From Komagataeibacter xylinus (lineage in GTDB: Bacteria; Pseudomonadota; Alphaproteobacteria; Acetobacterales; Acetobacteraceae): a stretch of DNA of 64,000 nt. The position numbers and the translations under genes are program-made. The notes under the pieces were generated by a model. It did no database searches and was not told the DNA's origin. It worked only from the letters and a program-made list of their open reading frames with translations. Where the stretch lies: contig NZ_JARWSK010000004.1 in the NCBI RefSeq assembly GCF_031081985.1, positions 248,001 to 312,000 on the forward strand, given 5' to 3'. This document shows positions 33,529-38,805 of this stretch, in pieces (positions within the stretch are counted from its first letter, which is position 1; each line of letters starts with the position of its first letter).

Positions 33529-36783
<3,255 letters not shown>

Positions 36784-36796
36784 GTCGGGTCGGCTT

Positions 36797-38194
36797 TCAC
36801 GCGGTCTTGGTTGTGGTGTCGATCAGATCGACAAAACGGCGGAACAGGTAGTGGCTGTCTGACGGGCCGGGGCTGGCCTCGGGGTGGTACTGCACCGAGA
36901 ACGCCGGGTAGCGGCTGGTGGCGATCCCCTCGTTCGAGCCGTCAAACAGGCTGGTATGGGTGGCGCGCACATCGGCGGGCAGCGACTTGTCATCCACCGC
37001 AAAACCATGGTTCTGGCTGGTGATCTCCACCTTGCCGGTTTCAAGGTCTTTCACCGGCTGGTTGGCGCCACGGTGGCCGCGCGCCAGCTTGTAGGTCTTG
37101 GCACCGAGTGCGAGGGCCAGGAGCTGGTGGCCAAGGCAGATGCCAAAAAGCGGCTTGCCCGCCTCGAGCACGCCCCTGATGGCGGGCACGGCATAGCTGG
37201 CGGTCGCCGCCGGGTCGCCCGGCCCGTTGGACAGGAACACGCCTGCGGGGTCGAGGGCGAGGATTTCCTCGGCGGTCGTGGTGGCGGGCACCACGGTCAC
37301 GTCACAGCCAGCCGAGGCCAGGCAGCGCAGGATGTTGCGCTTGGCCCCGTAGTCAACGGCTACCACCTTGTGGCGCTTGGCGGGCAGGGGTGCGGTGCCA
37401 TGCGGCCACTGCCACACGCCCTCGCTCCACGCGTAAGGCTTGGCGCAGGTGACTTCACGCGCAAGGTCCATGCCCTCCAGCCCCGGCCAGGCGCGGGCCT
37501 GGGCCTGCAAGGCCGCGATGTCAAACTGGCCATCGGCAGGGTAGGCCACGATGGCCGTCTGCGGGCCGCCCTCGCGGATGCGTCGCGTGATGGCGCGGGT
37601 GTCGATGCCGCAGATGCCCGGCACGTTCTGGGCTTTCAGCCACGCATCGAGCGATTCGGTCGCGCGCCAGTTGGCGGGCGCGGTCAGGTCTTCCTTCACC
37701 ACCAGCGCGCGGGCGTTGATGGTGGTGGCCTCATCATCCTCCGGCGTGGTGCCGGTATTGCCGATATGGGGGAAGGTGAAGGTAATGATCTGGCCTGCGA
37801 AGGACGGGTCGGTCAGCGTTTCCTGGTAGCCGGTCATGCCGGTGGAAAAGCAGATCTCGCCCAGCGCGCGCTCCGTGCTGTACGCGCCGAATCCGCACCC
37901 CCACAGGATGGTGCCATCGGCCAGGATCAGGGCGGCTGTCGCAGCTTTGGGCCTGTCGGCCGGTGCGATCGGGTTTGACGTGCTCATCGGGGGCTCCGGT
38001 CGGTCGGATTCTGTAGCGGGTTGCAGGTCGGACAGTGACAGGCCGGTGGCGCGCAGCACCGTGGTCCAGTGCTTGGGCGGAATGGCGCGGGCCTGCCGCC
38101 ATTTGCGAATGGCCTCGGTGCTGACGCCAGTCAGCTTCGCGGCCTGTTCGGCCCCGCCAAGGCGTTCGATAATACTTTCTATCGTCATCGGCAT
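36797..38194 (-). CDS. carA: Carbamoyl phosphate synthase small subunit with N-terminal HTH-like domain
   Basis: Glutaminase subunit feeding ammonia to CarB. Read from ATG 38194 (AAGGGA upstream) it has 465 residues. Residues 1-60 form an extra domain resembling Cro/YdaS-type helix-turn-helix folds ([18 protein letters not shown], then IPPKHW), which E. coli CarA (382 aa) lacks; residues 61-70 link it to standard CarA. The glutamine amidotransferase triad is Cys353 (FGICLGHQ), His437 and Glu439 (HPEA). An internal ATG at 37987 with GGAG six bases upstream would give a normal 396-residue CarA, so two forms are possible. I recall an NCBI family name, carph-isopro, for this kind of N-terminal domain but cannot check it. 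Confidence 0.93.
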
Positions 38195-38242
38195 TGGATG
38201 ATGTCCCTTCCGGGAGTATTGCCTAACAGCGTCTCTGGTAAT

Positions 38243-38259
38243 TGGGAAGAAAATTCCCA
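38243..38259. promoter_or_regulatory. Palindrome 1 (TGGGAA-N5-TTCCCA) in the carA/yqeY promoter region
   Basis: TGGGAA (38243-38248) and TTCCCA (38254-38259) are perfect inverted arms around GAAAA. The near edge is 48 bp upstream of the carA ATG. Its flank ATTGGGAA is repeated exactly at palindrome 2. Candidate operator. Confidence 0.6.
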
Positions 38260-38280
38260 CATACCCTTGCACCGAGACAT

Positions 38281-38297
38281 TGGGAAAATTATTCCCG
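38281..38297. promoter_or_regulatory. Palindrome 2 (TGGGAA-N5-TTCCCG) in the carA/yqeY promoter region
   Basis: TGGGAA (38281-38286) and TTCCCG (38292-38297) around AATTA. Centre-to-centre distance from palindrome 1 is 38 bp, and its near edge is 49 bp upstream of the yqeY ATG. It overlaps a weak TTGCAC-N17-TATTCC promoter-like pair (38267-38295) for yqeY-dnaG. Confidence 0.6.
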
Positions 38298-38346
38298 GCA
38301 TGCAAGGGGGCATCGTGCCCTCCCGCCGGGCAGAGGAGTTGACAGC

Positions 38347-38805
38347 ATGTCCCTGCGCGCACGTTTCATGGATGACCTGAAAACCGCCATGAAGGCTGGC
38401 CAGAGCGAAAAGGTCGGCACCATCCGCATGATTACGGCAAAGCTGAAGGATGTCGATATCGCAGGCCGCGCCAAGGGCGAGGACCAGGTAAGCGATGAGG
38501 CGGTGATTTCCATGCTGCGTGGCATGATCAAGTCCCGCACGGAATCGGCGGCGATGTACATCAAGGGCGGTCGCCCCGAACTGGCCGAGAAGGAAGAGGC
38601 CGAGATCGCGATCATCCGCGACTACCTGCCGCCTGATCTGGATGACGCCACCATCGAGGCCGCGGTGCGCGAAGCCATCGAGCGCACCGATGCCACCTCC
38701 ATGAAGGACATGGGCAAGGTCATGGCAGCACTCAAGGAGCAGTTTGGCGCGGCACTGAATCCGGCCAGCGCATCGGCGGTCGTGCGCGCGCGGCTTTCGG
38801 CCTGA
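38347..38805 (+). CDS. GatB/YqeY domain protein
   Basis: A 152-residue YqeY-family protein, related to the tail domain of the GatB amidotransferase subunit and suspected to bind tRNA or modulate amidotransferases. The start at 38347 has GAGGAG upstream; a longer open frame back to 38242 crosses the promoter palindromes and is rejected. Recognised from MIKSRTESAAMYIKGGRPEL, IRDYLPPDLDD and the end MGKVMAALKEQFG. First of the yqeY-dnaG-rpoD unit, an order typical of alphaproteobacteria, divergent from carA. Confidence 0.92.
   Translation: MSLRARFMDDLKTAMKAGQSEKVGTIRMITAKLKDVDIAGRAKGEDQVSDEAVISMLRGMIKSRTESAAMYIKGGRPELAEKEEAEIAIIRDYLPPDLDDATIEAAVREAIERTDATSMKDMGKVMAALKEQFGAALNPASASAVVRARLSA

Follow-up and report, generated by a model that had tools for sequence, protein, structure and literature searches.

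The window, a stretch of 64,000 nucleotides from Komagataeibacter xylinus, carries carA on its minus strand as one stop-free frame whose translation gives a protein of 465 amino acids, followed by carB. On the other side of carA a yqeY-like gene is read divergently, followed by dnaG and then by rpoD (sigma-70 domains). The carA-to-yqeY intergenic region is 152 bp long and contains both candidate operators (Table 1).

Table 1. Features at the carA locus, in window coordinates
Feature	Position	Strand	Basis or remark
carA, HTH-linker-CarA fusion, 465 aa	36797..38194	-	ATG at 38194
Cro/YdaS-like HTH domain, residues 5-58	38021..38182	-	NF046037, AlphaFold2, PDB sequence and Foldseek matches
Recognition helix of the HTH, residues 26-35	within 38021..38182	-	
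Linker, variable and of low confidence, residues 59-82	37949..38020	-	pLDDT, lengths, dN/dS
CarA proper: CPSase small-chain domain and class I glutaminase	36800..37948	-	family matches
Met70 internal ATG, possible start of a 396-aa short CarA	37985..37987	-	sequence
Shine-Dalgarno-like GGAAGGGA, 5' of the HTH start codon	38204..38211	-	sequence
carB, 3' of carA, same direction	33529..36783	-	
Candidate core promoter of carA	38220..38248	-	pattern match
TTCCCA, made up of the proximal operator's right half and one further base	38243-38248	-	part of the candidate promoter
Candidate extended -10, TG-T-TAGGCA	TAGGCA at 38220-38225	-	17-bp spacer after TTCCCA
Proximal operator (candidate) GGGAATTTTCTTCCC, minus-strand reading	38244..38258	.	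centre 57 bp upstream of ATG
Distal operator (candidate) GGGAATAATTTTCCC, minus-strand reading	38282..38296	.	38 bp from the proximal operator
yqeY-like divergent gene	38347..38805	+	PF09424, 142.9 bits

The original prediction was that a single frame joins a helix-turn-helix (HTH)-like segment to a complete CarA with its catalytic triad, and this is what the locus contains, with the family cut-offs passed by both parts. Residues 87-459 match the CPSase small subunit family TIGR01368 at 454.8 bits (cut-off 307.35), and the CarA part is also recognized by Pfam PF00988 and PF00117. C353, H437 and E439, which we take to be the glutaminase triad, are invariant in 30 aligned rows; judged by its domains and these residues, the CarA half is a complete glutamine-hydrolysing CPSase small subunit, predicted to be active. 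In the HMM search of the N-terminal segment, residues 5-58 match NF046037 at 64.2 bits within the whole protein, against a cut-off of 38, and the score rises to 68.2 bits for residues 1-69 alone. The name carph-isopro, given in the original prediction, is indeed that of NF046037. The description of this family as retrieved states no function, and the 'isopro' in its name fits 2-isopropylmalate synthase, which bears the same domain in other loci. A second, weak domain match in the same genome (24.6 bits, under the cut-off) lies in an 80-aa frame (L002, G000:C14:195538-195681).

Several lines of comparison place the N-terminal domain close to phage Cro proteins. The Pfam family P22_Cro is matched by residues 1-69 at 30.1 against a cut-off of 30.2, a borderline result, and YdaS is also under its cut-off. 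Sequence-profile matches in the PDB include XPH1, Xfaso 1 and N15 Cro at E 0.0002-0.0008, and P22 Cro at E 0.11. An AlphaFold2 model of residues 1-70 from 26 sequences (mean pLDDT 80.9, pTM 0.64) has helices at 5-12, 15-22, 26-35, 40-50 and 54-57. When this model is compared by Foldseek, places 1-8 are held by Xfaso 1 Cro, operator-bound N15 Cro, N15 Cro and the hybrid XPH1, with P22 Cro at place 10; the Cro matches have a probability of 0.99-1.00 and a TM-score on the query of 0.57-0.70, and no hit of any kind is under E 0.001. The structure prediction for this segment thus gave an HTH fold with Cro proteins as its best structural matches, and sequence and predicted fold together support a Cro-type HTH of the P22/N15 family. 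The full-length model (mean pLDDT 76.7) drops under 50 in the linker (residues 61-77) and likewise in parts of CarA, and for the latter reason it was used for the linker only.

A survey of CarA across the Acetobacteraceae, as the original prediction had suggested, found the fusion to be widespread, with a domain match over the NF046037 cut-off in 374 of 397 genomes. The remaining 23 were searched with the window protein at E 1e-40: 15 have no CarA match at that level, 6 have a carA truncated where the contig ends, and an intact HTH-less carA is found in 2 (G210 and G029). Detailed examination covered 111 loci, drawn from some of the 374 domain-bearing genomes and from eight of the other 23. 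HTH and CarA share one frame in 97 of them, although in a few the contig ends within CarA. Four have a broken or stopped frame, three times inside CarA and once at a G run of the linker (L158), where we suspect a long-read error. In two further loci the HTH belongs to a protein other than CarA, and the remaining eight have carA but no HTH (2 intact, 6 contig-cut). The fusion is also present in 80/80 loci of a second, named set, which comprises the best 80 of 352 relatives and shares species with the first set; the nearest named relatives are Komagataeibacter species, with a domain identity of up to 100%. In one locus (L168, G038), such an HTH precedes a domain that looks TetR-type by eye, in a 364-aa stop-to-stop frame.

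Matches to HTH-less CarA homologues mostly start near residue 65-85 of the window protein, as would be seen if the N-terminal segment were a misannotated, untranslated stretch. That explanation is very hard to sustain. The 97 fused loci have 29 linker lengths, from 18 to 67 amino acids, and the frame is retained through all of these; were the two parts read separately, two thirds of random changes would break it, which argues that the HTH is translated together with CarA. In nine pairs of closely related species, mean dN divided by mean dS comes to 0.11 in the HTH, 0.12 in CarA and 0.62 in the linker, which points to purifying selection on the HTH like that on CarA. The match of the segment's predicted fold to Cro also speaks against an artefact. 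As far as sequence can tell, the HTH segment is a real, translated protein.

The region upstream of the fused genes contains a conserved palindrome. We scanned 300 bp upstream of the HTH start codon in the 101 loci of the HTH-carA set, with dinucleotide shuffles and 300 coding bases as controls. The exact form GGGAA-N5-TTCCC is present in 79/101 loci (shuffles 0.05; coding control 0/101). With at most one mismatch it is found in 90/101 loci, and at least two sites are found in 74/101, where the shuffles give 1.75 and 0, respectively. Two mismatches would raise the count to 100/101, but shuffles (19.4) and coding sequence (9) also reach this level, and we therefore do not use it. Spacers of 2-4 and 6-8 and nine alternative arrangements of the half-site letters each yield 0-1 loci. 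A mismatch-free core, NGGAA-N5-TTCCN, occurs in 97/101 loci and twice in 58, of which 45 have the two cores 37-40 bp apart; the other four loci lack such a core, yet contain one-mismatch forms. In 11 loci the GGGAA form is missing even when one mismatch is allowed; seven of these carry an exact CGGAA-N5-TTCCG and four have one-sided or mismatched CGGAA forms. In the named set (again the best 80 of 352 relatives), at least one core is present in 80/80, two cores in 65 and the exact form in 74, and the spacing of the two cores is 38-40 bp in 43/65 and 44 bp in 19/65.

On the genome scale the palindrome is rare. The 3.5-Mb genome of the window strain has six exact copies (2 for the reversed control pattern), and the two at carA are the only pair. 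Of the other four, three lie inside long minus-strand ORFs and one between two such ORFs, under a plus-strand ORF. Across 19 members of the genus the palindrome occurs 4-14 times per genome (control 0-6), and among the matches listed at least ten members besides the window strain repeat the same two operator sequences 38 bp apart.

The loci that lack the HTH provide a complementary comparison. At both intact HTH-less Acetobacteraceae carA genes (L184 in G210 and L188 in G029, genomes of 1.7 and 1.9 Mb), no operator with at most one mismatch was found in the 650 bp read. If two mismatches are allowed, L184 shows two matches and L188 none; shuffles reach this level in 19/101. We consider L184 a loss of the HTH, since on the CarA tree it is nested in a supported group in which the domain is otherwise present; L188 forms a long branch, and its placement is unsure. 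Outside the family, we sampled 28 genomes from other families of the class, 25 of which have carA (split over two loci in G408); in the 24 genomes other than G408, carA has no HTH, and the core palindrome is missing from 24/24 upstream regions of up to 400 bp. Together, these comparisons support that the carA operator goes with the HTH in presence and in absence.

Residues 34 and 36 of the HTH show a visible covariation with the outer base of the operator. All seven HTH loci with Ser or Ala at position 34 and Gly at 36 belong to the C-type (CGGAA) operator class, but position 34 is occupied by a different residue in 8 of the 15 C-type loci, and L180 (Ser34, Gln36) has mixed sites. In a paired test on the tree, there is one supported independent pair for residue 34 and there are four for residue 36. 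Coevolution of operator and recognition helix within CarA was therefore dropped as proof, given the C-type exceptions and independent events too few for significance.

The position of the proximal operator relative to the putative promoter was also informative. In the 63 near-type loci, defined by a distance of up to 40 bp between proximal operator and start codon, TTG occurs exactly 7 nt before the operator in 54/63 (0-11 at eleven other offsets tried), and TA follows 2 nt after it in 39/63. By this pattern match, the operator (15 bp) and a flanking base at either end would fill the 17-bp spacer between -35 and -10. In loci of the window's type, TGNTA occurs exactly 15 nt after the operator in 60/68 named loci, mostly from acetic acid bacteria, which would place TTCCCA, the right half-site with its next base, 17 bp from an extended -10; in a genus-spread set of 34 far-type loci it was seen by eye at 15 nt in 6. 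Generic scans for sigma-70 promoters and terminators found none in 38100-38450. A proximal site that fills the -35/-10 spacer or overlaps the candidate -35 is in the position of a repressor site, where bound protein would lie on the core promoter.

The same or a related N-terminal domain was found on other proteins. A sister search covered 385 genomes of the class, 84 of which gave a match at E 1e-6 or better, and 398 genomes of the phylum, where 32 gave a match; the two sets partly overlap. Family scans identify the partners as aspartate carbamoyltransferase (PyrB, L076), acetylglutamate kinase (ArgB, L079 and L082), HisZ (L074, over a cut-off; L078, as best match under the cut-offs), the NAD(P)H-hydrate repair enzyme NnrD (L069), crotonyl-CoA carboxylase/reductase (Ccr, L073), phosphoglycerate dehydrogenase (SerA, L084), PDH E1-alpha (L080), 2-isopropylmalate synthase (LeuA, L328 and L329) and Mitofilin/Mic60 (L046). 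The HTH is over the NF046037 cut-off in L069, L073, L074, L076, L084, L046, L328 and L329, and under it in L078, L079, L080 and L082 (29-35 bits, E 1e-6 to 1e-8). Two other loci (L350 and L352) have a related HTH before a TorD/DmsD-like chaperone; L352, which was scanned, matches under the cut-offs.

Four of these enzyme groups, each with several loci, have palindromes of their own near the start codon. HisZ fusions (L192-L206) carry TTCAT-N5-ATGAA twice, 39 bp apart, in 15/15 loci, with one copy mismatched in one locus; these loci come from closely related members of a single family, and the upstream sequences of some are almost the same. PyrB fusions (L215-L217) have TTGCG-N5-CGCAA near the start codon in 3/3, ArgB fusions (L298-L301) have TTACT-N5-AGTAA in 3/4 at one mismatch or fewer, and NnrD fusions (L069, L207-L214) have TGTACG-N7-CGTACA within two mismatches in 9/9. 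The ArgB locus without a palindrome match is L300 (the same as L104), one of the first-seen loci. Loci of these groups that were not scanned individually were named by eye from their likeness to scanned ones. When the palindromes are matched across groups, the off-diagonal count is 0, except for one PyrB-type match in ArgB. Because the palindromes were first noticed in a few loci and then counted in further ones, the totals are not blind; the further loci alone give 13/13 for HisZ, 2/2 for PyrB and 1/1 for ArgB at one mismatch, and for NnrD 8/8 at up to two mismatches and 4/8 at up to one. In another HisZ fusion (g222), with an RKWRRRD-type helix, TGTCCTG-N4-CAGGACA lies upstream of L074, and degenerate relatives of it are seen in L075.

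No clear common operator was found for Ccr (L073, L092), SerA (L084), PDH E1-alpha (L080) or LeuA (L328, L329), each represented by few loci. Mic60-like proteins (L045-L072 and others) have the NF046037 domain, often with a TTVQGW-type helix, in front of a membrane segment. In 39 Mic60-type loci, typed by eye with L046 confirmed by Pfam, there is no recurrent palindrome at the own promoter; three loci have a distant NnrD-type match at two mismatches, and seven have palindromes scattered over differing places. The domain therefore need not always regulate its own gene, and on Mic60-like proteins it may tether DNA to the membrane or make some other contact. For the biosynthetic enzymes, we consider it probable that a Cro-type HTH has repeatedly been captured at the N-terminus of unrelated enzymes, mostly in Alphaproteobacteria, and that each has evolved a private palindrome at its own promoter.

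Our preferred reading for the window, to which we give a probability of about 0.84, is that the HTH of CarA binds the predicted operators and represses its own carAB operon by promoter occlusion. Control of the own operon through predicted DNA binding is the best reading of a Cro-type HTH that is translated with the enzyme and of an operator that is conserved and co-occurs with it. The HTH heads of CarA would dimerise on GGGAA-N5-TTCCC, of which the carAB promoter has one copy or, more commonly, two, and bound CarA would block sigma-70 RNA polymerase there, so that the amount of CPSase, perhaps also its ligand or assembly state, would set its own synthesis. UMP, ornithine or assembly with CarB might conceivably alter DNA binding. 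Binding by the CarA HTH, binding as a dimer and the repressive sign are what we infer from sequence patterns. DNA binding and control of the own operon had been part of the original prediction, and this part has gained the conserved operator in the carA promoter that tracks the HTH; the binding event and its effect on the operon keep the status of predictions. The operator pair in the intergenic region and the sister fusions go beyond the original prediction. A linker so variable and disordered speaks against a rigid relay between enzyme and HTH and favours control by amount or by oligomer number. Two operators might also fit a CarAB tetramer, which we retain as a mere possibility because fusions of HisZ, an unrelated enzyme, have the same 39-bp spacing; that spacings of 38-39 bp are shared with HisZ suggests that the geometry of the promoter or of the Cro domain, and not the shape of the enzyme, sets the distance.

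The most serious alternative, in our view unlikely though deserving of attention, is that translation from the linker ATG gives the main, HTH-less CarA, and that the long form is a minor subunit acting mainly as a repressor. An in-frame linker ATG exists in 68 of the 97 fused loci, 47 of them with a Shine-Dalgarno-like motif, and Met70 in the window is preceded by GGAG. However, 29/97 lack such an ATG, and the linker ATGs, 83 in frame as opposed to 47 and 2 in the other frames, show no clear enrichment. Two products would in any case modify the autorepressor reading, not replace it.

Both of the other alternatives concern what happens at the palindromes, and we regard them as improbable. Bound HTH could activate carAB, or could mainly control the divergent yqeY-dnaG-rpoD genes, as the sites in the window do lie in the divergent region beside a primase and sigma-factor operon. 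The placement of the proximal site in the spacer or over the -35 of the candidate carA promoter is nevertheless that of a repressor, and the site is retained in L017, where the divergent gene looks different by eye. Slightly less probable still is that another host protein binds the palindromes, the HTH serving in protein contact or nucleoid tethering, or being a relic. The related domain on Mic60-like proteins, which have no operator at their own promoter, would be in line with such a role. Against it stand the absence of the operator where the HTH is absent and its rarity in the own genome, where two of six sites are at carA. The palindromes also differ among the HisZ, PyrB, ArgB and NnrD fusions, and a single host regulator common to all of them would leave this difference unexplained. 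CarA might also act on the primase/sigma operon in this genus, as the operators are in the shared divergent region.

With autorepression by CarA as the preferred reading, the wider implication, if the capture of the module by unrelated enzymes is true, would be that self-regulating enzymes form a general class, in which the gene responds directly to the amount or state of its protein and needs no dedicated transcription factor. Enzymes that regulate genes have so far been known one by one, and a reusable DNA-binding tag, with an operator for each enzyme, would amount to a general design for feedback control. Such a design would supply a function for a database domain that has so far had only a name, make regulator and DNA site predictable together from sequence, and offer a simple part for building feedback-controlled pathways; the proposal is testable in acetic acid bacteria, which are harmless and genetically workable. 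Among the matches listed from open-licence papers (titles and abstract starts), neither the fusion, nor the operator, nor a self-regulating enzyme class is described. Enzymes with fused DNA-binding domains as such are known; what is new is the Cro module on CarA with its predicted operator, and its reuse on unrelated enzymes.

Trigger enzymes with a fused DNA-binding domain are exemplified by PutA, BirA and NadR, which use DNA-binding folds other than the Cro module. CarA resembles them in having a catalytic and a predicted DNA-binding part in one polypeptide, with probable control of the own pathway, and differs in that the same small module is found on many unrelated enzymes. To phage Cro of the P22/N15/Xfaso type (P22_Cro, YdaS) the likeness is in sequence, in the helical fold and in the short palindrome at a promoter; unlike phage Cro, the CarA HTH is encoded on the chromosome as part of a biosynthetic enzyme, and this enzyme has a predicted operator of its own. 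Within NF046037 the window HTH is a clear member, to which the operator and the autoregulatory reading are newly added. In E. coli, according to a review, carAB is controlled by the separate proteins ArgR, PepA, PurR, RutR and IHF, of which PepA is an enzyme acting as a carAB repressor (PMC6245113). As in E. coli (PMC6245113), carAB transcription would here be tied to the metabolic state, but the regulator in Komagataeibacter would be the enzyme subunit itself.
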